From: Oxalobacteraceae bacterium OM1 | GTDB taxonomy: Bacteria; Pseudomonadota; Gammaproteobacteria; Burkholderiales; Burkholderiaceae_D | Reading direction: 5' to 3' | Length of the DNA: 38,040 nt | Assembly: GCA_004570315.1 (NCBI GenBank) | Contig: SPQI01000335.1 | Span: 1 to 38,040 of the forward strand | Shown here: positions 2,086 to 37,123 of the stretch, one piece after another | Layout: the number at the start of each line of letters is the position of its first letter | How positions within the stretch are numbered: position 1 is the first letter of the stretch | The notes under the pieces: generated by a model | The model's input: the letters and a program-made list of their open reading frames with translations, nothing else | Databases searched by the model: none | What the model was told of the DNA's origin: nothing | Program-made: the position numbers and the translations under genes

Positions 2086-3390
2086 TTAGCGCTTGGCCGG
2101 CACGTCGCGGCGCGGCGAACCGACATACAGCTGACGCGGACGGCCGATCTTCTGCTCCGGATCGGAAATCATCTCGTTCCACTGGGCGATCCAGCCGATG
2201 GTGCGGGCCATGGCGAAGATACCGGTAAACAGCGAGACCGGGATGCCCAGGGCGCGCTGCACGATGCCCGAGTAGAAGTCGACGTTCGGGTAAAGCTTGC
2301 GCTGCACGAAGTAATCGTCTTCCAAGGCGATCTTCTCCAGTGCCATCGCCAGCTTGAACAGCGGGTCGTCGTGCAGGCCCAGTTCATTCAGCACTTCGTG
2401 GCAGGTTTCGCGCATCAGCTTGGCGCGCGGGTCGTAGTTCTTGTACACGCGGTGGCCGAAGCCCATCAGCTTGACGTTGGAGTTCTTGTCCTTGACCTTG
2501 GCGATGAATTCGCCGATGCGCTCGACGCCACCCTGGCGCTGGATGTCTTCCAGCATGTTCAGTGCAGCTTCGTTCGCGCCGCCGTGTGCCGGCCCCCACA
2601 GGCAGGCGATGCCAGCGGCGATACAGGCGAACGGATTGGCACCAGACGAACCGGCCAGGCGCACCGTCGAGGTGGAGGCGTTCTGCTCGTGGTCGGCGTG
2701 CAGGATCAGGATGCGGTCCAGTGCACGCACCAGCACGTCGTTGACCTTGTACTCGGCGCACGGCGTCGAGAACATCATGCGCATGAAGTTGGCGCTGTAG
2801 GACAGCTCATTGCTCGGATAGACGAAAGGCTGGCCGATCGAATACTTGTACGCCATCGCAACCAGGGTCGGCAGCTTGGCGATCAGGCGAATCGCCGATA
2901 CTTCACGATGATGCGGATCGTTGATATCGAGCGAGTCGTGATAGAACGAGGACAGCGCGCCGACGGTGCCGACCAGCACGGCCATCGGGTGCGCGTCGCG
3001 ACGGAAACCGCGGAAGAAGAACTGCATCTGCTCGTGGACCATGGTGTGGTTGGTCACGGTATTGACGAACTTCGTCTTCTGCTCGGCCGACGGCAGCTCG
3101 CCGTTCCATAGCAGGTAGCAGGTTTCGAGGAAGTCGCAGTTCACCGCCAGCTGCTCGATCGGATAGCCGCGGTACAGCAGCTCACCCTTGTCGCCGTCGA
3201 TGTAGGTAATCGAGGAATTGCACGCCGCCGTCGACATGAAACCCGGATCGTAGGTGAACTTGCCCGTCGTGCCGTACAGCTTGCGGATGTCGATGACGTC
3301 CGGGCCGATGGTGCCTTGGTAAATCGGGAGTTCCAGCGGCTGCGAGCCGTCGGAGAACGACAAGGTTGCTTTTGTCTCAGAGCTTTTCAT
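2086..3390 (-). CDS. gltA: Type II citrate synthase
   Basis: Condenses oxaloacetate and acetyl-CoA to citrate, the entry step of the TCA cycle. The product is 434 residues, the normal length for the hexameric, NADH-sensitive proteobacterial type. Recognisable segments include the N-terminal domain ([19 protein letters not shown]), the [11 protein letters not shown] motif, [14 protein letters not shown] (oxaloacetate-binding His), [15 protein letters not shown] (catalytic His) and [15 protein letters not shown]. An in-frame extension of 32 codons exists, but the ATG at 3390 is preceded by AAGGA at a good distance and matches the family N-terminus ([10 protein letters not shown]). It is the last gene of the sdhCDAB-sdhE-gltA cluster, with 58 bases between sdhE and its start, and is followed by a strong hairpin terminator. 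Confidence 0.98.
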
Positions 3391-3448
3391 GGCGCATCCT
3401 TCATTCAGGGTGATGCTATTGTTAAAGAAATCACAAAACGGGTCGGCT

Positions 3449-3718
3449 TCAGGCTGCGCGCAGGCGCTCCAGAAGCGCATGGACATGCGGCAAGTTCACT
3501 TCACCGCTCAGCTCCTTGCGTGCCAGGAGCAGGTCCAGCAATTCGTTGTCCGGCAATTCCATCAGCCGGGAAAACGCATCCACTTCCTCATCCGTGAGCG
3601 TGGCCTCATGGGCGTCCAGGAAGCGCGTGATGATCAAGTCGTTCTCGAGCAGCCCCCGTCGTGCGCGCCAGCGCAAGCGGGCACGCTTGACCGGATCGGA
3701 CTGGTGTTCGACAGACAT
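3449..3718 (-). CDS. sdhE: Succinate dehydrogenase assembly factor 2 (SdhE)
   Basis: Small cytoplasmic protein that promotes covalent attachment of FAD to SdhA. The 89-residue product is all helical in character and carries the family motif RGLLE (residues 21-25, the conserved RGxxE) followed by NDLIITRFL, and the later [14 protein letters not shown] segment. The start is uncertain: an ATG at 3718 is taken here, while an in-frame GTG at 3733 would add five residues but has no visible ribosome binding site. It lies between sdhB and gltA in the same direction, the common arrangement in Burkholderiales, which fits co-expression with its substrate SdhA. Confidence 0.93.
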
Positions 3719-3793
3719 CAATTTTTCTTTCACGAAACGCGCCGAACAGTACCGGCGTGCCGGGGGCCGAGGCGACAGCCTCGGCCGATTGGA

Positions 3794-4504
3794 TTACACC
3801 GTGCGGCGGACCATCAATTCCTTGATCTTGCCGATGGCGCGCGTCGGATTCAGGCCTTTCGGGCACACATCGACGCAGTTCATGATGGTGTGGCAGCGGA
3901 ACAGGCGGTATGGGTCTTCGAGGTTGTCGAGACGCTCGTTGGTCGCCTGGTCGCGGCTATCGGCGATGAAACGGTAGGCTTGCAACAGACCGGCCGGGCC
4001 AACGAACTTGTCCGGGTTCCACCAGAACGACGGGCAGGACGTGGAGCAGCACGCGCACAGAATACACTCATAGAGCCCGTCCAGCTCTTCGCGTTCCGCC
4101 GGAGATTGCAAGCGCTCTTTCTCGGGCGGAATAGTGTCGTTGATCAGGTAAGGCTTGATCGAATTGTATTGCTTGAAGAACTGGGTCATGTCGACGATCA
4201 GGTCGCGGATGACCGGCAGGCCGGGCAGCGGACGCAAAACGATCGGCTCGGTCAGTTCATTCAGGTTGGTAATGCAGGCCAGGCCGTTCTTGCCGTTGAT
4301 GTTCATGGCGTCGGAACCGCACACGCCTTCGCGGCACGAGCGGCGCAGCGCCAGGGAATCGTCGACGTCGGCCTTGATGCGCTGGAGCGCATCGAGCAGC
4401 ATCTTGTCGGTGTCTTGCAGGGTCACCGTCAGATCCTGCATGTACGGCTTGGCGTCCTTGTCCGGATCGTAACGGTAGATGGAAAATTTCAGGGTACGAG
4501 GCAT
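3794..4504 (-). CDS. sdhB: Succinate dehydrogenase iron-sulfur subunit
   Basis: Electron-transfer subunit of complex II, carrying electrons from the SdhA flavin to ubiquinone. The 236-residue product has the N-terminal plant-type ferredoxin domain with the [2Fe-2S] ligands in [12 protein letters not shown] and the downstream LACI segment. The C-terminal bacterial ferredoxin domain has [12 protein letters not shown] and [17 protein letters not shown], supplying the [4Fe-4S] and [3Fe-4S] clusters. The ATG at 4504 is preceded by TAAGGTAAG. It begins only nine bases after the sdhA stop codon, so the two are almost certainly on one transcript. Confidence 0.98.
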
Positions 4505-4513
4505 GGTCTTACC

Positions 4514-6292
4514 TTAGAAAGTACGTGCTTTGGGCTTGAAGGTCTCGACGGTCAGCGGCTTGGTGTTCACCGGCTTGTAGTCCAGGCGGTTGCCCTCGGA
4601 ATAGAACAGCGTGTGCTTCATCCAGTTTTCATCGTCGCGCTTCTCGTAGTCGCGATGCGCGTGCGCGCCGCGGGACTCCTTGCGGGCAGCTGCGGAGACG
4701 ATGGTCGCCTTGGCGGTCTCGATCAGGTTGTCCAGTTCGAGCGCTTCAACGCGGGCAGTGTTGAAGACCTTCGATTTGTCCTTGAACGCGACGTGCTTGC
4801 GGCGCTCGTCCAGCTCCATGATCTTGCGCACACCGGTCTGCAGCAGCTCGTCGGTGCGGAACACGCCGCAGTACTGCTGCATCGTGGCGCGGATGGCGTT
4901 GGCGACGTCCTGCACGCGCTCCGAGCCAGTGCTCGACTCGAGATGCGCGAGTCGCGACAGCGCGAGATCGGCCGCGTCGGCGGGCAGCGGCTTGTGGCTC
5001 TTCTGCTTGAGGTTCTGCGCAACGATGTGGTTGCCGGCGGCACGGCCGAACACCACGAGGTCCAGCAGCGAGTTGGTGCCGAGGCGGTTAGCGCCGTGCA
5101 CCGAGACGCAGGAGCATTCGCCGATGGCGTACATGCCGTTGACGACATCGTTCGGATTGCCGTTCTTCGGCGCGACGACCTGGCCATGGATGTTGGTCGG
5201 GATGCCGCCCATCTGGTAGTGGATGGTCGGCACGACCGGGATCGGTTCCTTGGTAGCGTCCACGTTGGCGAACTTGTGGCCGATTTCCAGAATAGACGGC
5301 AGGCGCTTACGGATGGTGTCGGCGCCGATGTGACGCAGATCCAGCAGCACGTGGTCCTTATTGGGCCCGCAGCCACGGCCTTCCTTGATCTCCTGGTCCA
5401 TCGAGCGGGACACGAAGTCGCGCGGCGCCAGGTCCTTCAGCGTCGGCGCGTAGCGCTCCATGAAGCGTTCGCCGTTGGAGTTGATCAGGATGCCGCCCTC
5501 GCCGCGCACGCCTTCGGTGATCAGCACGCCGGCGCCGGACACGCCGGTCGGGTGGAACTGCCAGAACTCCATGTCTTCGAGCGGCAGGCCGACGCGTGCA
5601 GCCATGCCGAGGCCGTCGCCGGTGTTGATGAAGGCGTTGGTCGAGGCCGCGAAGATGCGCCCTGCTCCGCCGGTGGCGAACAGCGTGGTCTTCGCTTCGA
5701 GGATCATCACGTCGCCGGTTTCCATCTCGAGGGCGACGACGCCGAGGATGTCGCCGTCCTGGTCACGCACCAGGTCGATCGCCATCCACTCGACGAAGAA
5801 GTGGGTCTTGGCGCGCACGTTGCGCTGGTAGAGCGTGTGCAGCAGCGCATGACCGGTACGGTCGGCGGCGGCGCAGGCACGCTGCACCGGCTTCTCGCCG
5901 AAGTTCGCGGTGTGGCCGCCGAAGGGACGCTGGTAGATGGTGCCGTCGGGGTTGCGGTCGAACGGCATGCCGAAGTGCTCGAGCTCGTAGACGACTTTCG
6001 GAGCCTCGCGGCACATGAATTCGATGGCGTCCTGGTCACCCAGGTAGTCCGAGCCCTTGACGGTGTCGAACATGTGCCAGTACCAGTTGTCCTCGGACAT
6101 GTTGCCCAGCGAAGCGCCGATGCCGCCTTGTGCGGCGACGGTGTGCGAGCGGGTCGGGAACACCTTGGAGAGAACCGCAACGTTCAGGCCGGCTTCAGCC
6201 AGTTGAAGCGAAGCGCGCATGCCGGAGCCGCCGGCGCCGACGATCACCGCGTCAAAGCGGCGGGTAGGAATGGATTGCTTGATTGCTGCCAC
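4514..6292 (-). CDS. sdhA: Succinate dehydrogenase flavoprotein subunit
   Basis: Catalytic subunit of complex II, oxidising succinate to fumarate at the cytoplasmic face of the inner membrane. The product is 592 residues. It has the FAD-binding loop GAGGSG at residues 19-24, the covalent-FAD motif SHTVAAQGG with His50, and the active-site segments FHPTG and [10 protein letters not shown]. The C-terminus ([11 protein letters not shown] and the final Tyr/Lys-rich tail) is typical. The start codon is GTG, not ATG; an AAGGTG ribosome binding site lies inside the end of sdhD, and only three bases separate the sdhD stop from this start, suggesting translational coupling. Confidence 0.98.
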
Positions 6293-6295
6293 GAT

Positions 6296-6664
6296 TTACA
6301 CCTTCCAGATAACCTGCACCGCATAACCGGCGCAACCGATCAGCCACAGGATCGTGGCCACCTGCAGCACGAGACGTGCGCCGACGGAGTGGGTGACGTA
6401 ATCCATCAGGATGTTACGCACACCGACCCAGGCGTGATACAGCAGGGAGACGAAGGTTACGAAGGTGGCAACCTTGAACCACTGATGGGCGAACAGACCG
6501 GCCCAACCTTCGTAACTGAAGTTTTTTCCACCGAGGAACGCAACTAGGAGGATCACCGTGTAGATCGCCATGACGATCGCGGTGACCCGCTGTGCCAACC
6601 AATCCCTGAGGCCGTAATGCGCTCCGACGACCAGGCGCTTCGGTCCGATATTGTTGTTTTCCAT
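6296..6664 (-). CDS. sdhD: Succinate dehydrogenase membrane anchor subunit
   Basis: Membrane anchor of complex II, helping to form the haem b and ubiquinone sites. The 122-residue protein shows three hydrophobic helices, roughly residues 28-45, 58-82 and 98-119. The conserved segment LLYHAWVGVRNILMDYV in the second helix contains the likely haem/quinone-site histidine. The ATG directly follows the sdhC TAA stop codon with no spacer, so translation is probably coupled. Confidence 0.95.
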   Translation of the reverse strand: MENNNIGPKRLVVGAHYGLRDWLAQRVTAIVMAIYTVILLVAFLGGKNFSYEGWAGLFAHQWFKVATFVTFVSLLYHAWVGVRNILMDYVTHSVGARLVLQVATILWLIGCAGYAVQVIWKV

Positions 6665-7075
6665 TTAAAACGCTCCGAACAATTTCAATGCAATCAGTGC
6701 GGTCGGCACCAGGCTCAGCACGAAGGAGGCAATCGACGTCGTGCGGCCGCTGTCCTTGTCGAGGCAGACGTGGAAGTCCATGAAGAGGTGGCGAATGCCG
6801 GCGAAGAAGTGGTGCAGATAGCCCCAGGACAGGAGCAGGATGATGATCTTAACGGGAGCACTGGAGACGAAGCCTTTCATGTGCTCGAAGGAGATCTCGG
6901 AGGTGAGGCTGAGGTCGAGCAGGTAGAGGACGAAAGGCAGAAAAGCGAAGAGTAGTGCGCCGCTGATACGGTGCAGGATCGAGAGGTAGGCGGCTAGCGG
7001 CAGCCGGTAATGCGCGACGTCAACAAACCGCATGACGCCGAATTTTTGCCGATTCTTTTTCACGGCTTCAGACAT
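6665..7075 (-). CDS. sdhC: Succinate dehydrogenase cytochrome b556 subunit
   Basis: Cytochrome b subunit anchoring complex II and contributing to quinone reduction. The 136-residue product has the family motif LHRISGALLF (His35, Arg36, Ser38, Gly39) at the start of the first helix. A second helix has the HHFFAGIRHLFMD segment, where His88 sits seven residues before His95, the spacing of the haem-site histidines of the E. coli protein. Three hydrophobic helices are visible. The ATG is preceded by GGGAG. It is the first gene of the sdh cluster; its promoter should lie in the 148-base gap after the GntR regulator gene. Confidence 0.96.
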   Translation of the reverse strand: MSEAVKKNRQKFGVMRFVDVAHYRLPLAAYLSILHRISGALLFAFLPFVLYLLDLSLTSEISFEHMKGFVSSAPVKIIILLLSWGYLHHFFAGIRHLFMDFHVCLDKDSGRTTSIASFVLSLVPTALIALKLFGAF

Positions 7076-7119
7076 GTGAGAACTCCCGTTGCGTATTAAT
7101 CCCGTAATTTTCGCTTATT

Positions 7120-7136
7120 TTTGTGCGGCACACAAA
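7120..7136. promoter_or_regulatory. Inverted repeat upstream of sdhC (candidate operator)
   Basis: TTTGTG and CACAAA form perfect six-base arms around a five-base centre, about 45-60 bases upstream of the sdhC start codon. The position fits an operator or activator site for the sdh cluster. The binding factor is unknown; the GntR product encoded just upstream is one candidate. Confidence 0.4.
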
Positions 7137-7223
7137 GCGAAGGCGAACCCTAGATTGACGGACCCGACGCGGGGCCGTGTCAATGAGGGGAACTACTGAA
7201 GGCTGCGGCATGGATGTTCGGCG

Positions 7224-8036
7224 TCAGCTGAGTTCGTTCTGGTAGTGATGGTGATGCGTCAGGTAGAGGCCGCGACGGACTTCCACCGGCTTGTCGCCAT
7301 AGGTGTACGAGACGCGCTCAACATTCAACATGGGTGTGCCGGCCGCGATATTCAACAGGCGAGCCGTATCTTCATCAGCCAAAACAGCACGAATTTTTTC
7401 GGTCGCGCGAATCATGCGCGTGCCGAATTCCGTCTCGAACAGGCCATACATCGGCCCCTTGTACTCGGTGAGCCGTTCCGCCGTCAGCCCCTTGAAGAGC
7501 GAGCCCGGCAACCAGAGCTCTTCGACGATGATCGGCTCTCCGTCGAAGGCCTGCACGCGCTTGATGAAGATGACGGAGTCGCCAGATTTCACATCGAGCA
7601 GCCGCGCCACTTCCGCCGGCGCTCGTAGGCGCTTGACCTCGAGGATGCGGTTGTCGGCATGGTGCGGTTCGCCCGTATCGGGCATGAGGCGCAGGAAGCG
7701 GTACTGCGCGCGCGCCTCGTGATGGGTGGCGACGAAGGTGCCCTTCCCTTGCCGGCGCACGACGAGGTTTTCGGCGGCCAGTTCGTCAATCGCCTTGCGC
7801 ACCGTGCCCTGGCTGACCTTGAAGCGGCCGGCCAATTCGATCTCGCTCGGAATCAGCTCGCCCGGCTTCCACTCGCCCGACTGCAGGCTCTGCGTGATGA
7901 GCGCTTTGATCTGCTGGTAGAGCGGACTGAAAGTGGGCGAAGTGCCGGAAGCGGAATTCCCCGCCGCAGTGCCGGGCGGCGCGCCAGGATTGGTCAGGTT
8001 GGGCGGGGTTGAACTCATAGCACGCGATTTCACCAT
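7224..8036 (-). CDS. GntR-family transcriptional regulator with UTRA ligand domain (HutC subfamily)
   Basis: Dimeric DNA-binding repressor whose effector domain senses a small metabolite. After a low-complexity N-terminus of about 38 residues, a winged helix-turn-helix runs from LYQQIKALITQSL through LIPSEIELAGRFKVSQGTVR to RRQGKGTFVA. A UTRA domain follows to the end (DSVIFIKRVQAFDGEPI, ERLTEYKGPMYGLFE, NVERVSYTYG). The start is uncertain: ATG at 8036 or at 8018, neither with a strong ribosome binding site. The gene sits between the sdh cluster (same strand, downstream) and mdh (divergent), so it probably controls TCA genes on one or both sides; this is inferred from position only. The ligand cannot be named from the sequence. 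Confidence 0.93.
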   Translation of the reverse strand: MVKSRAMSSTPPNLTNPGAPPGTAAGNSASGTSPTFSPLYQQIKALITQSLQSGEWKPGELIPSEIELAGRFKVSQGTVRKAIDELAAENLVVRRQGKGTFVATHHEARAQYRFLRLMPDTGEPHHADNRILEVKRLRAPAEVARLLDVKSGDSVIFIKRVQAFDGEPIIVEELWLPGSLFKGLTAERLTEYKGPMYGLFETEFGTRMIRATEKIRAVLADEDTARLLNIAAGTPMLNVERVSYTYGDKPVEVRRGLYLTHHHHYQNELS

Positions 8037-8080
8037 AAAAGGACGTTTGCCGTCCAGAAAAAATCTGACAACTGATATGT

Positions 8081-8133
8081 CTTATATAAGATATAAGATA
8101 CTTATTGACAGAGGTGAGTCGCGCGCCTACACT
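8081..8133 (+). promoter_or_regulatory. Probable mdh promoter with adjacent palindrome and direct repeats
   Basis: TTGACA at 8105-8110 and TACACT at 8128-8133 have the ideal 17-base spacing for a sigma-70 promoter reading toward mdh, giving a leader of about 170 bases. Directly upstream lies the palindrome TCTTATATAAGA (8080-8091) overlapping a tandem TATAAGA pair (8085-8098). AT-rich short repeats of this kind are typical operators for GntR proteins, and the gntR gene is divergent from here. The remainder of the gap up to mdh shows nothing else clear. Confidence 0.55.
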
Positions 8134-8313
8134 CGCGAGCAATATTGACATGCTTCAAGCGAACGCGCGCCGTGCGGACCGGGCGGCGCCCGACGAAGCA
8201 GAGGCCCGTTGCGGCATCAAGCCTTGGCAGGGTTTCAACGGTATTATTACAGGCTTCGGAAAATTTTTTCGCTACGTTCCGCCCCGAATTCATCCCCACT
8301 TTGGAGACTCACC

Positions 8314-9303
8314 ATGGCTAAAGCCCCCATGCGCGTTGCCGTCACCGGCGCCGCCGGCCAGATCGGCTATTCCCTCCTGTTCCGCATCGCCAACGGCGAC
8401 ATGCTGGGCAAGGACCAGCCGGTCATCCTGCAACTGCTTGAGATCCCGGACGAGAAGGCCCAGAAGGCACTCAAGGGCGTGATGATGGAGCTCGACGACT
8501 GCGCATTCCCGCTGCTGGCCGGCATGACCGCGCACAGCGATCCGATGACCGCGTTCAAGGACATCGACGTCGCCCTGCTGGTAGGCGCCCGTCCGCGCGG
8601 CCCGGGCATGGAGCGCAAGGACCTGCTCGAGGCGAACGCCCAGATCTTCACGGTGCAGGGCAAGGCGCTGGACGCCGTCGCCTCGCGCAACGTCAAGGTC
8701 CTGGTAGTCGGCAACCCGGCCAACACCAACGCCTACATCGCGATGAAATCGGCGCCGAATCTGCCGGCCAAGAACTTCACCGCCATGCTGCGCCTGGACC
8801 ACAACCGCGCCCTGTCCCAACTGGCTGCCAAGGTCGGCAAGCCGATCACTGCCATCGAGAAGCTCTGCGTCTGGGGCAACCACTCGCCGACGATGTACGC
8901 CGACTTCACCCACGCCACCATCGACGGCCAGCCGGCGAAGGCGCTGGTGAGCGATGAAGCCTGGACCAAGGACGTCTACCTGCCGACGGTCGGCAAGCGC
9001 GGCGCTGCCATCATCGAAGCACGCGGCCTGTCGTCCGCAGCTTCCGCAGCGAACGCGGCCATCGACCACGTACGCGACTGGGTACTCGGCACCAACGGCA
9101 AGTGGACCACGATGGGCATTCCGTCCGACGGTTCCTACGGCATCCCCGAAGGCACCGTGTTCGGCTTCCCGGTCACGACCGAGAACGGCGAATACAAGAT
9201 CGTGCAAGGCCTGCAGATCGACGCCTTCTCGCAGGAACGCATCAACCTGACGCTGAAAGAGCTGCAGGAAGAGCGTGACGGCGTGAAGCATCTGGTCGGC
9301 TGA
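8314..9303 (+). CDS. mdh: Malate dehydrogenase
   Basis: NAD-dependent oxidation of malate to oxaloacetate in the cytoplasm. The 329-residue product is the normal length for the LDH-like MDH of Burkholderiales. It has the Rossmann glycine motif GAAGQIG at residues 12-18, the mobile-loop segment [14 protein letters not shown] with substrate-binding arginines, [14 protein letters not shown], and the catalytic histidine in [14 protein letters not shown]. An upstream in-frame extension to 8209 is rejected: the ATG at 8314 has GGAG seven bases upstream and the product then begins [15 protein letters not shown], as in the family. It is transcribed away from the GntR gene. Confidence 0.98.
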
Positions 9304-9381
9304 TAGCCGAGACGGCGGATGGAACGCAAGCAGCGCGCGCCATCCGCCCTCGCCCCCTCCGTACTTTTCCCCCATCCTTCC

Positions 9382-10347
9382 ATGCACCCCTCTGAGGTCT
9401 TGTTCCAGGGCGCTCACGCACCGGTTTCCATTCCGGTCTGCGATCACTACGCCGGCTCCGAAAAGCTGATGCGCAAGTCGGTCGCCCTGCAGCAAGAGCT
9501 TGGCCCCATCTTCGACATCACCCTCGACTGCGAGGACGGCGCCAGCGCCGGCAACGAAGAAGCGCATGCGCGCCTTATCGCCTCTCTGATCGATAGTCCG
9601 GACAACCGCTTCGATCGCATCGGCGCCCGCGTGCACGACGTCAGCCATGCGAGCTTCGAGCGCGATGTCGAAATCATTTGCACCGCCGCGCGGCGGCTCG
9701 CCTACCTCGTCATTCCCAAACCCGAAGGCCTTGCGGACGTGCAGCGCGCCATCGAAGTCGTGCAGCGCCATGCCGCCGCGAACGGCCGCTCCGACCTGCC
9801 TGTGCACGTGCTGATCGAAAGCCACAGCGCCTTGCCCGACGTCTTCGCCATCGCCGCGCTGCCGCAGGTCGAATGCCTGTCCTTCGGCATCATGGATTTC
9901 GTGTCTGCGCATTACGGCGCGATCCCCGGAGCCGCGATGCGCTCGCCTGGCCAGTTCGAACATCCGCTCGTCGTCCGCGCGAAACTTGAAATCGCTGCTG
10001 CCTGCCATGCCTACGGCAAGACGCCGTCGCACAACGTAACAACCGAGATCCGGGACCCTGCAGTCGTGGCGGGCGACGCGGCACGAGCGCATGCGGAATT
10101 GGGCTATACGCGCATGTGGAGCATTCATCCGGATCAGATCCATCCCATCGTCCAGGCGCTGTCGCCGGCAGCGACGGAGATCGACGAAGCAGCGGCGATC
10201 ATTGCCAAGGCACAGGCTGGCGCATGGGGACCAATTCAACACAACGGCCGCTTGCATGACCGTGCCAGTTACCGCTATTACTGGACGGTGCTGCAGCGCG
10301 CCCGACGCAGCGGCCAACCGATACCGGACACAGTGGCGGGCTTATGA
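9382..10347 (+). CDS. HpcH/HpaI aldolase / CitE-like lyase family protein
   Basis: TIM-barrel lyase related to the citrate lyase beta subunit and to malyl-CoA or citramalyl-CoA lyases; the substrate cannot be assigned here. The 321-residue product has the metal/acid motif ITLDCEDGASAG (residues 47-57), the RIGARVHD strand with the CoA-ester-binding arginine, VLIESHSALPDV, and LSFGIMDFVSAHYGAIP. The C-terminal MWSIHPDQIHPI segment is typical. The start ATG at 9382 is chosen to match family N-termini (MHPSEVLFQG), although no clear ribosome binding site is seen; an in-frame ATG at 9319 would add 21 residues. It lies between mdh and acnA in the same direction, a conserved arrangement in this order that suggests a TCA-linked role. 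Confidence 0.9.
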   Translation: MHPSEVLFQGAHAPVSIPVCDHYAGSEKLMRKSVALQQELGPIFDITLDCEDGASAGNEEAHARLIASLIDSPDNRFDRIGARVHDVSHASFERDVEIICTAARRLAYLVIPKPEGLADVQRAIEVVQRHAAANGRSDLPVHVLIESHSALPDVFAIAALPQVECLSFGIMDFVSAHYGAIPGAAMRSPGQFEHPLVVRAKLEIAAACHAYGKTPSHNVTTEIRDPAVVAGDAARAHAELGYTRMWSIHPDQIHPIVQALSPAATEIDEAAAIIAKAQAGAWGPIQHNGRLHDRASYRYYWTVLQRARRSGQPIPDTVAGL

Positions 10348-10412
10348 AGATTTACGTGCAAAAAACCCGTCCGGACAGCCCGCCCGGGTATGCACGCCAG
10401 GAGACATGTTTG

Positions 10413-10889
10413 ATGAAGACTTTGACCGCCCTCTTCGTATTTGCATTCGGCCTCGTCGCCGGTGCGCCGGCCGCCATGGCCCAAGACAGCCAGCCGGCCA
10501 AGAAGCACACCGCCAAGAAGTCGACGGCGAAGAAAGCGGCCCCCGCGGATTCCCATGACGCCGCCGGCGAAGGTGACGACAAGGCGCCGGAAGTATCCAA
10601 TTACAGCCCGGTCGACTACGACTGCGAGCTCGGGAACAAGCTGACGATCTATCGCAGCCCCGCGGAAAACGATCACATTGCCTTGCGCTGGAAAAAGCAG
10701 CTGCTGCGCCTGGATCGCGTCAGCACGACGACCGGCGCGAACCGCTTCGAGAATCGCAAGATCGGACTGGTCTGGATCGACATTCCCGCCAAGGGCATGT
10801 TGCTCGATTCGAAGAAAGGCCATCAGCTCGCTAACGAGTGCCGCAGCCCTGAGCAGCTCAAGGCAACGGCGGAAGCGGCGAAAGGTTGA
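10413..10889 (+). CDS. Secreted protein with MliC-like (lysozyme-inhibitor type) domain
   Basis: A 158-residue exported protein. Residues 1-23 form a clear signal peptide ending AMA before QDSQ. A Lys/Ala-rich linker follows (KKHTAKKSTAKKAA). The remainder has the outline of an MliC/PliC lysozyme-inhibitor domain: a Tyr-x-Cys near its start (YDCELGNKLTIY), a central NRFENRKIGLVWIDIPAKGMLL stretch, and a closing Cys that could pair with the first. Assignment is by pattern only. AGGAG lies nine bases before the ATG; an in-frame start at 10344, overlapping the lyase gene, would hide the signal peptide. It sits between the lyase and acnA genes. Confidence 0.7.
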   Translation: MKTLTALFVFAFGLVAGAPAAMAQDSQPAKKHTAKKSTAKKAAPADSHDAAGEGDDKAPEVSNYSPVDYDCELGNKLTIYRSPAENDHIALRWKKQLLRLDRVSTTTGANRFENRKIGLVWIDIPAKGMLLDSKKGHQLANECRSPEQLKATAEAAKG

Positions 10890-10974
10890 GGCGGATAGCA
10901 TTCCGGCGCACTGCGCCACGCAAGTCAGGGCAGGATTTTTTTACAGTTACGTTCGCATCTAATAAGGAGAGGCT

Positions 10975-13686
<2,712 letters not shown>

Positions 13687-16835: not shown

Positions 16836-16912
16836 CGGGGCGTAGCGCAGCCTGGTAGCGCACCTGCATGGGGTGCAGGGGGTCGGATGTTCGAATCATC
16901 TCGCCCCGACCA
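16836..16912 (+). tRNA. tRNA-Pro(GGG), CCA encoded
   Basis: A complete 77-base cloverleaf. The acceptor pairs CGGGGCG with CGCCCCG, discriminator A, and CCA is encoded. The D arm is GCGC/GCGC. The anticodon stem CCTGC/GCAGG holds the loop ATGGGGT with anticodon GGG. The T arm has TTCGAAT in its loop. It is the last core feature before the accessory DNA, a position typical of tRNA genes used as integration sites. Confidence 0.97.
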
Positions 16913-19993: not shown

Positions 19994-21301
<1,308 letters not shown>

Positions 21302-25395: not shown

Positions 25396-28300
25396 TTAAA
25401 TCTGCCCACCCACACCTTTAAACTTCTCAACAAAGGTAGCTATCTTATGGAACACACTCTGTTTCTTTGTCAGGTACTGCGGGTTTAATGGACTCATTTT
25501 TGGCAAGATGGCATTGAGTTCCGTCCCATTGTCGCTGGCGAATTCTCGTCTCAATGAGGTGCTGATATAGCGTTTAGCCGCTTCTGTATTCAGATTCTCG
25601 GCACTGATTAACTCTTGTGCTTCCCGCTGTTGCTCTGCTTGAGCGAAAGTGAAGAAGGCATCTATCACGCTGGCCTTATCGCCAATCGGGTCCAGGTCGG
25701 TTTGGTTAATAAAATCGACGAGCAGGCTTTCTTTGGCGCGATTGCCAAGGCTGGCACGAATCACCCGGCGTACATCTTCGACCAGTGTGGCTTTGTCCTT
25801 GACCTTTTTATTGTTCTCAAAGATCAATTCCAGAATGTAGTCCAAGTTGATTTCTTGTGACTTCAGCAGATCCACCTCAAAGACCACGTCATCCCAATCG
25901 ATTACGGACTTTTCTTTCTCGGCGGAAGACTTTTCCCGACGTAGCCAATCGCGAACGTCATTGTAGGTCGAACGGTAGTCTTGAATCTTTCGTTCGGCTG
26001 GTATCTTGATTGCTTGTAGCGCCGCCAGATCATCATCGCTCAAATAGTGCTTGGCTTTAAATGCCTCAACCGCCGCCGGGTCGCTTACGTCTACGTTTTG
26101 CAAGGCTTTCAGGCTGGCAAATTGGTCGTAATTTTGCAGCACATTTTCAACACGCAAATACTCGCCGAACAGTTTTGCAAAGGCCTTCTTATCCGACTCT
26201 TTTTCAAGGGCAGAAGGATCGGGAAAGCGTTGCTCGAGCTCCCTCACGACTTCCACAAAGCCACGCCGCGCCTCACCAGTCACCACATCGGTGAAGCCTT
26301 CCATGTATTCCTTGTAGCTCTTCTCCAACACCACGTTCTTGGTGTTTTTGTCGCCAAACAAGGTGATGGCGTCAATGGTTGCCTGCTCCAGATCACGGAA
26401 GGTGACGATATTGCCGAAGGTTTTTGTGGCATCAAAAATGCGATTAGTCCGCGAATAGGCCTGCATCAATCCGTGGTAACGCAGGTTTTTATCCACAAAC
26501 AAGGTGTTCAGAGTGGGGGCATCAAAGCCGGTAAGGAACATGCCCACCACAATTAGCAGATCGATTTCCTTGGTTTTGACTTGCTTCGCCAAGTCGCGGT
26601 AATAGTTTTGAAAGCCGTTGCTATCCACGCTGAACTTGGCCTTGAACAGCGCGTTATAGTCAGCGATGGCCGCGCTCAAAAATTCCTTGGCGCTGCTGTT
26701 CATGGCCGAAACATCAAAGCTTTCATCGTGAATGTCACCTACGGAATCCTGCTCTTCGTTGGCGGCAAATGAGAAGATGGTGGCAACTGTCAGTGGCTTG
26801 TCGCTGCCTTTCTGCAATTCCCTGAACGACTCGTAATACAGCTTGGCGGCGTCCACGCTGCTCACGGCAAACATGGCATTAAAGCCCTTTGCGCCCGCTT
26901 GCAGGCGATGGGTTTTTTGCCGGAAGTTATTGAGGATGTACTGGGTAATCTCTCGAATGCGATCGGGGTGCAGCAAGGCTTGCTTGTTTTCTGCCGCGCT
27001 GAGTTTTTTCTCGTCCTGCTCAGCTTCAATGGCTTTGAACTGCGGGCGCACATCGTTGTAGTCCACCTTGAACCTCAGCACCTTTTCGTCACGAATCGCA
27101 TCAGTGATTACATAAGAATGCAGCTCACGGCCGAACACACTGGCAGTGGTTTCAGCGCCAAGGGCGTTCTGGGGAAAAATCGGTGTGCCGGTGAAGCCAA
27201 ACTGATAAAACTTTTTAAATTTCTTCTTGAGATTTTTCTGTGCTTCGCCAAATTGGCTACGGTGGCATTCATCAAAGATGAAGACGACCTGCTTGTTGTA
27301 GATTGGCAGGTCGCTCTCGCCTTTCATTAGGTTGTTGAGCTTCTGAATGGTGGTGACGACGATCTTGTTGTCGTCTTTCTCCAGATTGCGCTTAAGGCCT
27401 GCAGTGCTGTCAGAGCCATTTACGCTATCGGGCGAAAATCGCTGGTATTCCTTCATGGTCTGGTAATCAAGATCTTTACGATCCACCACGAAAAACACCT
27501 TATCGATGAAATCCAGCTCGGTAGCCAAACGCGCCGCCTTGAAACTGGTCAGGGTCTTGCCAGAGCCGGTGGTGTGCCAGATGAAGCCGCCGCTTTCCGT
27601 GTTGCTCCAGTTCTTAGCCTGATGGCTGCTCTTGATCTTCCACAAAATGCGCTCTGTGGCGGCAATCTGATAAGGGCGCATCACTAGCAGCGTGTTACTG
27701 ACATCAAACACCGAGTAATGCAGCAGCACATTGAGCAGCGTGTGCTTCTGGAAGAAGGTGGCCGTGAAGTCTTTCAGATCTTTGATCAGACTGTTGTCCG
27801 CCTTCGCCCAGTTCATGGTGAAGTCGAAGCTGTTCTTGTTGCGCTGTGTGGTGTTGGCGAAGTAACGGCTGTCGGTGCCGTTGGAGATCACGAACAGCTG
27901 CAAATACTTAAACAGGGAATGCTCACTGTTGAAGCTTTCCTTGCTGTAGCGATGCACCTGATTGAAGGCTTCACGAATCGCGACGCCGCGTTTCTTCAGC
28001 TCCACCTGCGCCAGCGGCAAACCATTCACCAGAATCGTCACGTCATAGCGGTTGGCGTGACTGCCAGTCTGTTCAAACTGCTTGATCACCTGCATCTTGT
28101 TGCGGGCGATGTTTTTCTTGTCCAGCAGGTAGATATTCTGGATGCGCCCGTCGTCAAAGACGAAGTCGTGGATATAGTCGTCGTGAATCTTGCGGGTTTT
28201 CTCAACAATGCCATCGCTGGGCTTGTCCAGCCAGGTTTCCACGAAGCGCAACCATTCGCCGTCAGCAAACTGCACATTATTGAGCGCTTGTAGCTGGACG

Positions 28301-28494
28301 CGCACATTTGCGAGTAAGGCTTCGGGCGCATTCAGACCGGGGAGGTACTCATAACCCTGATTCTGCAAATCCCGAATGAACTCTCGCTCCAAATCTGCTT
28401 CGCTCTGGTAGCTTTCTACGACCTTCCACTCTTGGATGTATTTATCGAGAACGATGTAGTTCTTCGATTCGGCGATGGGGCTGTATTCGATCAT
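25396..28494 (-). CDS. hsdR: Type I restriction endonuclease subunit R (type IC)
   Basis: Motor and nuclease subunit that translocates DNA with ATP and cleaves it far from the recognition site. The product is 1032 residues. The nuclease core has Asp151 ([10 protein letters not shown]) and Glu165-x-Lys167 (AQVELKKRG). Helicase motifs follow: Walker A HTTGSGKT with Lys313, and the DECH box with Asp408/Glu409. These residue numbers coincide with those I recall for EcoR124I, the type IC prototype, so the protein is nearly collinear with it. The start at 28494 is fixed by an ATGA overlap with the prrC stop; an in-frame extension to 28686 lies inside prrC and is not real. The C-terminal domain that binds the methylase is present. 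It is the last gene of the hsdM-hsdS-prrC-hsdR operon. Confidence 0.95.
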
Positions 28495-29708
28495 GTAGTT
28501 TTTTCCTGCCAAAATCGATGATGCTCGACAACGTGCTTGACCAGTTTTTTCAGAACCTGCTTCTCTTCTGGTTTCAGTGGTGACACTTCTTCGGCAGCAT
28601 GCTTCGAATGGCTGGAGAAGTTCACAATTCGCTTTGCGTACGGGTTGGGCAAGCCGTCGTCTGTGTCCGGCAGAAGATGTTCCCACCTTTTGTACCCGAG
28701 AAATGTTGCCGTCTTTTCGAGAATATTCCGAAGCAGGTTGAAGTGATATTTTTCGATCTGCCCACTTTTTATGGCTTCCTCAAGCTGCGATATCAGGTGC
28801 AGGTGATATGCAAAAGGAGAATCGTTTGGCTGCTCTGATATATGAAGGGTGCCGTCACCATTTTTCTCCAATCGTGACTTGCTGAACCATTTTGACTTCC
28901 AGCTGTAGCGCTCGGTTTTTTCATCGCTACCAAACTCGTTGCAAAGCACATTAAAGAAGAGTGGGTTATGCGTAGTGATAATGAACTTGACACTAGACTC
29001 GTTTGATTTGACCAACTGCGCCAAGTCTACGGCCAGCTGTATCAGGTGGTTGTCATCCAGAGAGCTAACCGGATCGTCAATGAACACATATTCCAGTTGG
29101 TTGAATTGGTCGGTTTCTCGATCACCAGGCTCGGCAACATTGAGAACACCGATCACTTGTTCAAGCAGCGCGTAGAAAATACTCCAGATAAAGTTGCTTT
29201 CTTCACCCTTGGAGATTTTTAGGCTTCCCGAATGCGTCGTATCGCCACGCTCCATCGTGAAGGTAACTTCCGAGAACGCTTTGATAGTGATCTGTTTGTC
29301 GCCTTCGCCATTCTCTGTACGCTCGGCGTTGAAGTGTGGCGTCAGCTTGTCGTTGGTATAACGCTGAAACGTCGTGATGACGTTCATGTCCTGGCCCTGA
29401 TCCTTCAGCACCCAATCCGTGAAGGTATTAGACTGAATCTTCAGCTTAGGCTCAGCATCATCTTTCAGGTCGTTATCCCAATAAAACAAGTCTTCAGTAA
29501 AGGCGTTGTAATACAGGATTTTGTTGCGCGATAACTCAAGTTGATCAGCTTCTTCATCGTCTTCGTTACCATTCGCCCTAGGAGCGATCAGCTGCTTGAA
29601 TTCGCGCGAAAGCTGTGTTTTACCGGTGCCGTTAAAGGCATAGATCAGCTGTATCTTTTTGTTGGCATCTTTTAGCTGCTGGGCGATTTCCTTTAGTGTA
29701 TTGCTCAT
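28491..29708 (-). CDS. prrC: PrrC-type anticodon nuclease
   Basis: Predicted guard toxin that stays silent in complex with the type I enzyme and cleaves a tRNA anticodon when a phage disables restriction. The 405-residue product (E. coli PrrC is about 396) has an ABC-like NTPase domain: Walker A FNGTGKTQ at 25-32, signature-like ISKGEES near 165, Walker [15 protein letters not shown] at 206-219, and the H-loop TTHN at 244-248. The C-terminal nuclease region has Arg327 and Glu331 four apart in [10 protein letters not shown], and His367/His370 in [11 protein letters not shown], matching the Arg320-Glu324-His356 triad of E. coli PrrC. The opening TLKEIAQQL and [12 protein letters not shown] is PrrC-like. 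It starts one base after hsdS and overlaps hsdR by ATGA. In E. coli the target is tRNA-Lys; here the target is inferred. Confidence 0.88.
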
Positions 29709-29709
29709 G

Positions 29710-30923
29710 TCAGGCCGCTACCTCTTCAGACTTTGTGAAGCTAAACAGAAGATTGCGGTAATACTCGTATTGCTTTTGGCGTAACTCGATTTCGCTGGAC
29801 AAGCCCTCGCTGAGAGAGTTTGCGAGAGCGTTGAACTTGTCCAGAATGGCGACAATTCGCTCTTTCTCTTCGGGAGAAGGATTCGGAATGCTGATGCTTT
29901 CTAAATTCTTTTTGTTTAGCTTCGGCTGAGCCGCTCCTGAGATGTAAGGCGTCAAGTCAATGCTATTTAAATAGTATTCAACGTACTTACGCTCAGCGTA
30001 TGTCTCGAATTTAAGAACATGCGCATGATTGTTCACCCAGCTTTTTCCGCTAATACTGAAAGCAATTGCGGTATTTCGCGCCAACAAATTAGCACCGTCT
30101 TCGGAGACAAGCAGGAAGTCACCGTCAAAGATATAGTCTTTAACGTAGTCAACAATACCCGAAGCACCATAGTAAGGAATATCACCTGGATCTCTAAAAC
30201 TACTCGCAATAGGCTTCCTCATCGAATCAAGATTTAATGCTAGTTCCCCCAACGTCTTCCACTCCACCTCCTCTTCCTCGAAACTCAACAACTGGTCGCG
30301 ATAGTAGCTGTATTGTTTTTTTCGGGCGGTAAGCTCGGCGGTAAGCTCGGCGGTGAGCTCGGCAGTACGCTCGGTAAAGGCGTCAAGAATGCGGGCAATT
30401 TCGGCTTGGATTTCAAGCGATTTTTTCGGGTTGTCTGGAAAGGGAATAGGTATTTTTGCTTTACCGAGGCCATTCGAATTTATCGACGATATTTTTCCAG
30501 AGGAGACATCTTTCTTGATTTGCTCCTTAAAAGGAGCAGCTCTCAAGAAATGAGAAACATATTTTGGGTCTAGTTTGCTTCTATATGAAAAGCAAGCATC
30601 GTGAATTACGATGTCGCCCTCGCCCAGCCAAGCCGTGCCATTACCAATGTCCTCAATAGTTTCACCCGCTGCGACAATAATCACGTCTCCATGACTTGCG
30701 GCCCGCAATTTTGAAGCCAGCGCTGGATCAAGGAACGATTTCGATTCTTTTGCCCAAATCCCATAATGGGTATATATCTCCCCATAATGGATGCATGGAA
30801 CGCCCTCTAGGGCTATATCTGTTTTTACAAACCTCTTTCCTCTAACGAATTCACCGATCTCGCCCAGCGCCCTCCACTCTACTGCAACGCCGCCCAGCAG
30901 CTTTTCCAGCAGGCTTATATTTT

Positions 30924-30927
<4 letters not shown>
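29710..30927 (-). CDS. hsdS: Type I restriction-modification specificity subunit S (type IC)
   Basis: DNA-recognition subunit shared by the methylase and the endonuclease. The 405-residue product has two target-recognition domains, at about 1-165 (starting [18 protein letters not shown]) and about 220-350 (starting [10 protein letters not shown]). Each is followed by a conserved helical spacer ([13 protein letters not shown] and [15 protein letters not shown]). The central spacer carries three TAEL repeats at residues 188-199, the element that in EcoR124-type enzymes sets the distance between the two half-sites. The paired [15 protein letters not shown] and [15 protein letters not shown] show the internal duplication. 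The start overlaps the hsdM stop by ATGA. The recognition sequence cannot be read from the sequence alone. Confidence 0.94.
30331..30366 (-). repeat. Three 12-base tandem repeats in hsdS (TAEL repeats)
   Basis: On the plus strand the unit AAGCTCGGCGGT occurs twice perfectly, then GAGCTCGGCAGT, with a degenerate fourth unit beyond. Each unit encodes Thr-Ala-Glu-Leu on the minus strand. In the EcoR124I/EcoR124II pair, two versus three such units change the recognition-site spacer by one base. Confidence 0.93.
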
Positions 30928-32483
<1,556 letters not shown>

Positions 32484-34609: not shown

Positions 34610-34876
34610 TTAAAGTGAGCCAACCCATCCGGTATGCTGGCGCACGCCACAGCGCGTCAGCAGCGCGTGGCGTACGTCTCCTGTAAGGAGAGCATCCCGT
34701 GCATTCAAAAAGACCTTAAAAAACAACGGCTTGGAGATGCTCACTTGCTGTGTGCTTCGCGCAATCGAGCATTCACTTAAGTCATTGATTTCTAAACCTA
34801 ATTCTTTTTGCTCGCGATCGAACAAACGCGTCGAGCATGCCGAGCATCGAGCATTGGCGGCATCTACCACCATCAT
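34610..34876 (-). CDS. Small hypothetical protein with CxxC motif
   Basis: An 88-residue product beginning MMVVDAANARCSACSTRLFD, with one CxxC pair near the N-terminus, then ELGLEINDLSECSI and a hydrophobic LFFKVFLNARDALL stretch. No family is recognised. Its ATG overlaps the stop of the helicase gene as ATGA, which supports coupled translation and a real gene. Confidence 0.5.
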   Translation of the reverse strand: MMVVDAANARCSACSTRLFDREQKELGLEINDLSECSIARSTQQVSISKPLFFKVFLNARDALLTGDVRHALLTRCGVRQHTGWVGSL

Positions 34877-36462
34877 TCGCGACCTCCTGTCTGGCGTGCC
34901 TTTGTGCGTTTAGCCGTTTTCTTGTCGACCGCTCGCTTTCCTTGCACGGTGCTCTCTTCGGTACCGATAGCTTTGGCGTCCGACGTCTCCGCCGGAGTGG
35001 CATCCGCCGGAATGTATTGGCTGCCAGGACCGATGCGGATGAGCTTGACCTTGCCGGCATTCATAAGCGCCTTTGCGTGCTCGGCAAACCACTTCGCCGA
35101 CAGGTCATTGAACTGCAGCGGCATGTCGTGACGGCGCTTATGCAGTCCGTTGACCGAAGTCGAGCTGGCGGCATACGGTTTGCCTTCGCCATACGCCTTT
35201 GCGATTTCGTCGAGGAGTTCCTGTTCCAGCAGCGCATTGTCGTCCCGCTGCAGGCGCAAAAACTCATGCGTGCAGTCTTCCAGCAGACCGGCCTCGTTAC
35301 GGATGTAGATCGTTTCGTCACGGCGTGCATCGCCGTTCGCCTTCACGATCCGGCCGACTACTACGCTGTTTTCCGCATAGTCGCGGCCCAGCTTCTCGCA
35401 CACTTCTCTGCCGTGCGGGTGCGGGTACAGTCCATACGCGGCACGTGCACTACCCACGATGGCGCTCGACCCACGGATTGCATCCATGGCGTTGGAGCCT
35501 GCCATGGGACCACCCTTGTCGGTCGCCTTGTCCTTGTTGAAGTGATGCAGCACCATCACGGTGGCCCCCGTCCGCGCTGCCAGGTCTGTGAATTCGTTCA
35601 TCATCGACTGGGCGATTTCAGCAGCGTTGAGGTCGCCGGTGCTCACCGCCTGCAAGGTGTCGACCACGATGAGGACAACCTCGTCCAGGCCCAGGATCTC
35701 TTCCTTCAATGCCAGCCACGCTGCAGTAGCCTGCATGCCCTTACGCGGGTCGCCCTCGATGACGCACAGGTGTCCTTGATCCGGGAGGCTCGCGACATGC
35801 AAACGCTCGGGCATCGGGCGGCCGCCCGCCAATGCGTGGAGGCGGCGATGCATCTCCTCGAGGTCGTCCTCGGCGCTGATGATGACCGTGCAGCCACGGC
35901 TTTCCACCCGGCCGCCGAAGCAAACGCGAACGTCGTCGAACGCAGTGGGTCCGGGCGGCAGTGTGAGTTGCAGTGCTAGATACAGCGCCAGCATTGACTT
36001 GCCGACACCGGGTGGCGAGGCAACCACGACTACCTTCCCGCGCGGGAACACCCGGTGAACCAGCCAGCCCACCTGCTTCGGCGTGCCAGCAAATAGCCGA
36101 TCGGCCGTATTGGCCTTCAAATTGAACGCCCGGCGCTCGGCGCGGCTCGACTGCGGGACGTCCGACGGCACCGGCGACGCCTGATTGGCCGCACTGCGCG
36201 CGATCTTGCGTACTTCATTGACGTCCAGCGCCGTCTCGCACAGTCGCAAATTAAGACTGTGCAGGGCAACACCGATTTCCTCTTCCTGCATGCCGGCTCG
36301 CCGCAGAACACAAGCGCGCTTGAACAGTTCAGCGTTGCGGCGGCCAACGGGAATGCGCTCGTCGGCAGCGTCGTTTGCTGCCAGCGTACCTGCGGACGTG
36401 CTATGCCCGCCGCGCTGGCAGAAAGCGATCAACGCCTGCGGCGCTATGGCGAAGTTATGCAT
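34873..36462 (-). CDS. RepA-like replicative helicase/ATPase with PriCT-type N-terminus
   Basis: A 529-residue replication protein. Residues about 40-95 look like a PriCT primase-associated domain (GRRNAELFKRACVLRRAGMQ, ALDVNEVRKIARSAAN). A RecA/RepA-type hexameric helicase domain follows: Walker A SPPGVGKSMLALYLALQL, then TVIISAEDD, Walker B VVLIVVDTLQAV, and the LHHFNKD segment. The C-terminal region has a winged-helix-like part (LQFNDLSAKWFAEHAKALM) and a basic Lys/Thr-rich tail. The start at 36462 is favoured by GGGAGG at ideal spacing; another ATG at 36480 is possible. Either start overlaps the end of the primase gene. It should unwind element DNA during excision and replication. Confidence 0.82.
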   Translation of the reverse strand: MHNFAIAPQALIAFCQRGGHSTSAGTLAANDAADERIPVGRRNAELFKRACVLRRAGMQEEEIGVALHSLNLRLCETALDVNEVRKIARSAANQASPVPSDVPQSSRAERRAFNLKANTADRLFAGTPKQVGWLVHRVFPRGKVVVVASPPGVGKSMLALYLALQLTLPPGPTAFDDVRVCFGGRVESRGCTVIISAEDDLEEMHRRLHALAGGRPMPERLHVASLPDQGHLCVIEGDPRKGMQATAAWLALKEEILGLDEVVLIVVDTLQAVSTGDLNAAEIAQSMMNEFTDLAARTGATVMVLHHFNKDKATDKGGPMAGSNAMDAIRGSSAIVGSARAAYGLYPHPHGREVCEKLGRDYAENSVVVGRIVKANGDARRDETIYIRNEAGLLEDCTHEFLRLQRDDNALLEQELLDEIAKAYGEGKPYAASSTSVNGLHKRRHDMPLQFNDLSAKWFAEHAKALMNAGKVKLIRIGPGSQYIPADATPAETSDAKAIGTEESTVQGKRAVDKKTAKRTKARQTGGRE

Positions 36463-37123
36463 CACCACCTCCCACGACATCCCAGTCGAGCATCAGATAC
36501 TTTTTGCCGTTCAAGGTGGAGGGTTCCACCACGATGTAGCCACCACCGGAGCGAATATCGAGGCCAGGAGCGATTCCGACGCGGTTCCCGACGCGCGTCC
36601 CTTCTGGCAGGAGGAAGATACGGTGCTCGCCGCCAGACGGGGTGCGCTGCGTCTGGGTGGGCGGCAGCGGCCCATGCTCATCCTCGAAAGCCGCCAGCGT
36701 GGCATAGCCGTCGACGCCGTTCTTGCAGTCGATGTCAACCACCATCATGTCGTCGGCAATGGCAAGGCCCAGATTGGCATCTGGGTTTCGGCGGAGTAGC
36801 GCGATGGTGTACTCCAGCGGCATTTCCTTCCAGCCGGGCGCCAGCGGTTCCTTGCTGTTGGGTTTCAGCGGGATTGGGTGAAGGCGATGGCGTGCGTACG
36901 CCTGGGCATAGGTGACGGTCGCGGGGTCATTGGCAATAGCGGCGGCGTAATTCCGGCCGCCGTTGGCGACGGCGTAGTTTTCGGCAAACGTAATTACTCC
37001 GCTATCGTCATTTTCTGCCAGGATTGCGGTGGCGCGGCAGGTAACGTGAGCGCAGCCGAACCCGAGAACCATGGACGCCGTCTCGCGGCGATCGGCGTCA
37101 AGTGGAACAGTAGCGGTCTTCAC
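36455..37123 (-). CDS. Primase-polymerase (PrimPol) domain protein
   Basis: A 222-residue protein related to the N-terminal bifunctional primase/polymerase domain of plasmid and satellite replication proteins. After about 70 unassigned residues comes AQAYARHRLHPIPLKPNSK and PGWKEM. The catalytic DxD is Asp130/Asp132 in MMVVDIDCKNG, and the conserved His is His167 in TPSGGEHRIFLLP. GLDIRSGGGYIVVEPS completes the fold. The start codon is GTG, overlapping the alpA stop as GTGA. In many satellites this domain is fused to the helicase; here it is a separate gene that overlaps the helicase gene. Confidence 0.82.
   Translation of the reverse strand: MKTATVPLDADRRETASMVLGFGCAHVTCRATAILAENDDSGVITFAENYAVANGGRNYAAAIANDPATVTYAQAYARHRLHPIPLKPNSKEPLAPGWKEMPLEYTIALLRRNPDANLGLAIADDMMVVDIDCKNGVDGYATLAAFEDEHGPLPPTQTQRTPSGGEHRIFLLPEGTRVGNRVGIAPGLDIRSGGGYIVVEPSTLNGKKYLMLDWDVVGGGDA

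Follow-up and report, generated by a model that had tools for sequence, protein, structure and literature searches.

A three-unit TAEL array, very probably a helical ruler, in the specificity subunit of a predicted Type IC operon with a prrC homologue

The hsd operon and its surroundings

The window, which is the whole stretch of 38,040 nucleotides from Oxalobacteraceae bacterium OM1 that was analysed, contains a compact leftward operon in the order hsdM–hsdS–prrC–hsdR, with four-base overlaps at the hsdM/hsdS and prrC/hsdR borders:

30924..32483, minus strand: hsdM, Type I methyltransferase subunit, 519 amino acids (NCBIfam hsdM, 1.9e-197)
29710..30927, minus strand: hsdS, Type I specificity subunit, 405 amino acids (Methylase_S, two stretches)
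28491..29708, minus strand: prrC homologue, anticodon-nuclease family, 405 amino acids (PADLOC PrrC, 1.9e-147; Arg327/Glu331/His367)
25396..28494, minus strand: hsdR, Type I restriction subunit (likely ATG at 28494; HsdR family, 5.5e-209)

The HsdR contains an EcoR124_C domain (6.6e-71), and the HsdS aligns with that of EcoR124I at 1.5e-54 and holds the peptide TAEL three times, a Type IC feature as given in a passage of PMC10030836. HsdM, HsdS and HsdR are thus encoded together and resemble their EcoR124 counterparts, and the predicted products identify the operon as a Type IC restriction–modification system. A search for a second copy of hsdS in the organism's own genome, represented by one assembly, returned a single match, the gene itself.

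The prrC homologue lies between hsdS and hsdR. In its product, Arg327-x3-Glu331 and His367 correspond to the triad of catalytic residues in PrrC and RloC as given in part of PMC2610378. All three are also present in a 60% identical protein that is encoded on an E. coli plasmid and carries the annotation anticodon nuclease. A putative PrrC-family protein with the Arg-x3-Glu...His triad is encoded inside the hsd operon, and the gene arrangement, judged from sequence, is of the EcoprrI kind as outlined in passages of the review PMC3874165. The likeness to EcoprrI and its PrrC, a Type IC system whose operon contains prrC and whose HsdS has three TAEL units, is drawn from that review's description, and silencing of the window PrrC by the complex is putative. 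A Fic-family gene occupies positions 7298–8299 of locus L120 (Shewanella baltica plasmid pSBAL11702), between hsdS and hsdR. With prrC in the window and in locus L114, and a Fic-family gene in L120, the slot between hsdS and hsdR may carry differing cargo genes.

Beyond the restriction–modification operon, a Prim-Pol and an AAA_25/PriCT_1 protein are encoded at 34873–37123 on the minus strand, and a tRNA-Pro(ggg) gene lies at 16836–16912 on the plus strand. A search of 14 further genomes from the genus with the DNA of 34873–37123 gave no match; this absence, together with the tRNA-Pro(ggg) and the Prim-Pol and AAA_25/PriCT_1 genes, suggests a mobile island. The block at 2086–13686 is chromosomal in character, with TCA-cycle genes for citrate synthase, a succinate dehydrogenase/fumarate reductase flavoprotein and aconitase, alongside a GntR/UTRA regulator and members of the lactate/malate dehydrogenase and HpcH/HpaI families. 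Positions 19994–20326 (plus strand) hold the start of an open frame, in which a Cys-Gly-Gly run of lipoprotein type precedes a long, Pro-rich tandem repeat with periods 6, 12 and 18; it had no Pfam match.

The repeat array and its predicted helix

The following features surround the array in hsdS, and the model of the protein gives a second helix as its counterpart:

30331..30366, minus strand: three tandem 12-base units, TAEL three times, HsdS residues 188–199 (sequence, Tandem Repeats Finder)
30325..30330, minus strand: half unit ACCGCC (Thr-Ala), end of the array (sequence)
30316..30322, minus strand: seven-A run on the coding strand (Arg-Lys-Lys codons), just past the array (homopolymer scan)
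30289..30429, minus strand: predicted central linker helix, HsdS residues 167–213 (AlphaFold2 model)
29740..29874, minus strand: predicted C-terminal helix, HsdS residues 352–396, counterpart of the central helix (AlphaFold2 model)

Read 5′ to 3′ on the minus strand, unit 1 (30366–30355) is ACTGCCGAGCTC, and units 2 (30354–30343) and 3 (30342–30331) are both ACCGCCGAGCTT; unit 1 differs from this identical pair at two bases. The preliminary description had spoken of two perfect units and one near-perfect unit of 12 bases, placed in the central spacer between recognition domains. The sequence bears this out and adds the half unit, and the position of the peptide in the 405-residue HsdS agrees with that placement. 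Tandem Repeats Finder reports 30325–30374 with period 12, 4.2 copies and a score of 79. Base shuffles of the 4 kb round the array yielded three equally alike tandem 12-mers in 0 of 200 trials. When the peptide was held fixed and the gene's own synonymous codons were reshuffled, the observed likeness was reached in just 55 of 5000 trials (about 1%), so the DNA units are somewhat more alike than the repeated peptide alone would make them. The seven-A run is the sole match in 25396–32483 to a scan for A/T runs of at least 7 and G/C runs of at least 6; frameshifting at this run is a conjecture.

The stretch from LDxFT to RKKQY has 16 residues in the window HsdS versus 12 in 7bst, one unit more, where 7bst is the structure of EcoR124I, although the entry itself labels the molecule EcoR124II. 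On the scale used for the survey below, counted from after LDxF to RxxQY, EcoR124I has 13 residues and the window 17. With four residues more than EcoR124I, the window HsdS has the linker length of the EcoR124II-type three-unit spacing class, and its predicted setting is that of EcoR124II, EcoDXXI and EcoprrI. In the AlphaFold2 model of HsdS (mean pLDDT 85.5, pTM 0.68), the array falls within one predicted helix, the central linker helix. The top structural matches of the model are known S subunits, including 7bst (E 1.5e-17); the TM-score to this EcoR124I HsdS is just 0.57, too low for reading domain distances off the model.

Linker length and unit number among relatives

Linker lengths were surveyed in 80 genome contigs picked by HsdM similarity and not by the repeat (the best 80 of 578 confirmed matches), with further sets of 77 IMG/VR loci picked by HsdM similarity, 77 IMG/VR loci picked by HsdS, 30 loci from relatives (a match in 25 of 196 related genomes) and 10 plasmid loci. 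The tabulation covers 126 contigs with a full HsdS, the window included, with one count per contig. Dropped beforehand were the window copy of L001; L026–L028 and L030, which are repeat loci of the same genomes; L085, whose hsdS is truncated at the 5′ end; L088, whose left anchor is altered (linker 13 by eye); and L198–L274, the second IMG/VR scan, in which many contigs are shared. Contigs without a full HsdS numbered 17 of the 80 from genomes and 27 of the 77 from IMG/VR, many of them through the contig end.

Across the 126 contigs, whose genome set is the best 80 of 578, the central linker has 13 residues in 76, 17 in 45, 9 in 3 and 5 in 2, and the C-terminal LDxF-to-RxxQY stretch has 17 residues in every one (126/126). 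The script accepted any length from 4 to about 40, so the four-residue steps were not imposed by it; the counts come from relatives that share ancestry and are hence non-independent. Partial central linkers in the contigs that lack a full HsdS are of 9, 13 or 17 residues, except in L188; this divergent contig (HsdM 52%) has its S frames split, and its two linkers of 14 break the four-residue step. Half-frames among the 30 related-genome loci have linkers of 9 (L007) and 13 (L011/L030).

In L007, L011/L030, L054, L095, L104, L171 and L188 the HsdS frames stop shortly past the central repeat; some of these shortened frames may be split or half-size S genes, and others may reflect frameshifts or contig effects. 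In L036, L056, L122, L179, L191 and others, LEAE-type units replace TAEL in Type IC HsdS with the same four-residue step. A literature search of incomplete coverage found no tabulation of linker length across the family with a fixed partner helix, and the survey is the sole part of this work that may be new.

Unit number changes in nature, as judged from two observations: contigs with the same recognition domains differ in linker length, and one plasmid pair differs by 12 bases. When the 126 contigs (genome set, best 80 of 578) were grouped with a threshold of 97% identity for each of the two recognition domains, 11 groups of at least two contigs resulted, 4 of which hold both 13 and 17 and 7 a single length. 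The HsdS proteins of the Klebsiella pneumoniae plasmids NZ_CP044046 (three units) and NZ_CP030268 (two units) are identical bar one unit; their hsdS genes align at 99.0%, with spans of 1218 and 1206 bases and a 12-base gap as the only difference. From hsdM to hsdR there are 9 more mismatches, and the surrounding 31 kb has 263 mismatches at 99.1% identity. Among six fully covered plasmid records at 98.4% or above, the spans indicate two units in one and three in five, and for a second hsdS, from E. coli, nine full-cover records have two two-unit and seven three-unit spans; the sequence was read for 4 of these 15 records (two Klebsiella, two E. coli), and the unit numbers of the others are inferred from spans. 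The preliminary description had named a number invariant across related loci as evidence against its proposal; close relatives in fact differ by whole units. Either slippage or unequal recombination is possible as the source of the whole-unit changes seen in these relatives.

Three further searches added no contrast of this kind. With the hsdS region of L151, E. coli genomes gave 105 records at 80% cover, and the 40 listed consist of 2–6 joined pieces with no usable span. With the L134 region there were three records, all with spans equal to that of the two-unit query. With hsdM plus the flank upstream of it, the plasmid matches listed reach at most hsdM and the start of hsdS.

The units within one gene are homogenised: codons at matching places within one array agree in 1350 of 1504 comparisons (90%; 121 arrays), whereas the codon use of the gene itself would give 26%, and permuting units with the same peptide and place between loci gives 63% (s.d. 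0.9, maximum 67% in 500 permutations). Such homogenisation within a gene is as expected if units are lost and regained. In the window array the longest perfect period-12 match covers 18 positions, a 30-base tract, versus a median of 25 among 123 arrays and 30 among 47 three-unit arrays. A match as short or shorter occurs, the window included, in 44 of the 123 and 6 of the 47. The window array is thus among the less uniform three-unit arrays and partly decayed.

Within the genus, 15 genomes were examined (the organism's own included), and besides its own only one, G005, has an HsdS match. Its first recognition domain is like that of the window in 152 of 175 residues, and in a second comparison at 88% over 150 residues, where the next-closest full-length first domain among 127 other distinct HsdS stands at 49%. 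The second recognition domain of G005 differs from the window's (33%). The linker has the same length as in the window, with the units altered to TAQL-SAEL-TAEL, and a prrC match is present. Because G005 shares only the first domain, one recognition domain has been exchanged within the genus and the linker length kept. Of the 127 other distinct HsdS, 16 carry the window's second domain at 73–91% identity, in a comparison confined to pairs with a domain length difference of at most 40 residues; 9 of the 16 have linker 13 and 7 have linker 17, so this domain occurs with both lengths. The shorter perfect match in the window array and the equal length in G005 do not indicate a recent change at the window locus.

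Predicted spacing and competing readings of the array

In the passages of the review PMC3874165 drawn on here, EcoR124I has two TAEL units and EcoR124II, EcoDXXI and EcoprrI have three, one unit amounts to slightly over one helical turn, and the extra unit of EcoR124II sets the domains 0.34 nm further apart and rotated by 36 degrees. The target passes from GAA-N6-RTCG in EcoR124I to GAA-N7-RTCG in EcoR124II, and hybrids with a changed repeat number behaved as predicted (PMC3874165). The preliminary description had attributed a six-base gap to the two units of EcoR124I and a seven-base gap to the three of EcoR124II, in agreement with these passages. A passage of a 2025 review (PMC12707154) also mentions that certain members of Type IC carry four additional residues.

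By analogy with these enzymes, and from the alignment and the model, the array very probably serves this Type IC HsdS as a helical ruler that sets the half-site spacing. Each TAEL unit would lengthen the linker between the recognition domains by about one helical turn, and the added turn would shift and rotate one of the domains against its partner by about one base pair. According to passages of PMC3874165, how far apart the methylated bases lie is set by the helix, and the review's table gives a Me-interval of 7 for EcoR124I and of 8 for EcoDXXI, EcoprrI and NgoAV, so that three units predict methylated adenines at Me-interval 8, as in the published EcoDXXI and EcoprrI. With half-sites of the EcoR124 kind, the motif would have seven unspecified bases. 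NgoAV has interval 8 yet eight unspecified bases (N8) in the same source, which makes the seven-base gap that had been predicted for the three window units conditional on what the recognition domains read. Homology supports the ruler behind that prediction, but the safe prediction is interval 8, with N7 only for EcoR124-type half-sites. Gain or loss of a whole unit would keep the reading frame and alter the spacing, and in relatives such changes do occur, as an evolutionary route to new specificity.

The window HsdS shares with EcoR124II a central conserved region that holds three TAEL units (the count for EcoR124II being that of passages in PMC3874165); unlike EcoR124II, it has different recognition domains, a unit 1 that is two bases off and prrC within its operon. 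NgoAV, a Type IC system of Neisseria gonorrhoeae described in parts of PMC6789123, likewise has a four-residue central HsdS repeat whose number changes the spacing, one LEAT unit giving GAC-N6-TGC and two giving GAC-N7-TGC. It differs from the window in that its strains hold 0 to 3 LEAT units, with motifs altered accordingly, and in a poly-G tract that truncates the NgoAV protein. Type I S genes of Helicobacter pylori also have central 12-bp repeats, but of another sequence and in two to six copies, the number varying among alleles, versus three TAEL in the window (PMC3077401, in part).

We regard it as unlikely that the array is a stable coiled-coil linker whose unit number is inherited and either irrelevant to present specificity or unchanging on the relevant time scale. 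The length is indeed the same in the window and in G005 although the second recognition domain was exchanged, and the window units are partly decayed, but unit number directly sets spacing in the published enzymes (PMC3874165, in part), relatives alter the number with the rest of the gene unchanged, and units are homogenised inside arrays.

A live phase-variable switch, in which unit number shifts often enough for two specificities to coexist in a population, is quite improbable here. The tandem repeat is in frame and includes a perfect tract of 30 bases, near-identical genes in relatives differ by one unit, and the LEAT count of NgoAV varies from 0 to 3 among strains, the motif changing with it (PMC6789123, in part). 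However, the window array has just 2.5 perfect copies, a match this short or shorter is seen in 6 of 47 three-unit arrays (the window's included), G005 keeps the window's linker length despite decayed units, one assembled genome with one copy shows no mixture and could show none, and 7 of the 11 same-domain groups have a single length. A frequent reversible switch of unit number in this bacterium is possible but unsupported. The preliminary proposal that whole-unit slippage could change specificity fits the relatives, which differ by whole units; at this locus, where the array is partly decayed and the same-genus relative has equal length, a switch is only a possibility.

That three units are demanded by a linked PrrC nuclease seated on a complex of this geometry is scarcely credible, and PrrC linkage as their cause is largely refuted: the window, G005 and the E. 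coli plasmid locus L114 all combine prrC with three units, as does EcoprrI in passages of PMC3874165, but among 127 contigs with a full HsdS (40 with prrC, 82 without, 5 uncallable) the 40 with a prrC match comprise 18 with linker 17, 21 with the two-unit linker of 13 and 1 with linker 9, and 27 of the 82 without prrC have linker 17 (Fisher p = 0.23), and the 122 callable contigs give no hint that unit number is tied to prrC.

The ruler reading leaves the window as an ordinary further example of a TAEL mechanism already well described in the literature. The survey is a useful by-product, with a partner stretch that is constant in 126 natural contigs (genome set, best 80 of 578), and it supports a pattern of one locked and one free helix. 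A wider picture, to which we give little credence as a whole, would have the C-terminal helix of Type IC systems locked and the other moving in one-turn clicks, with the window array as a live dial and PrrC acting on cells with a failed complex; the live dial at the window locus and the role of PrrC in it are speculation. The natural two- and three-unit plasmid pairs of Klebsiella and E. coli lend themselves to tests of spacing and of what it costs. If the picture of a locked helix and a free dial were true, spacing would be a continually renewed, digital part of specificity, and rare unit changes would give rise to new specificities in single cells.
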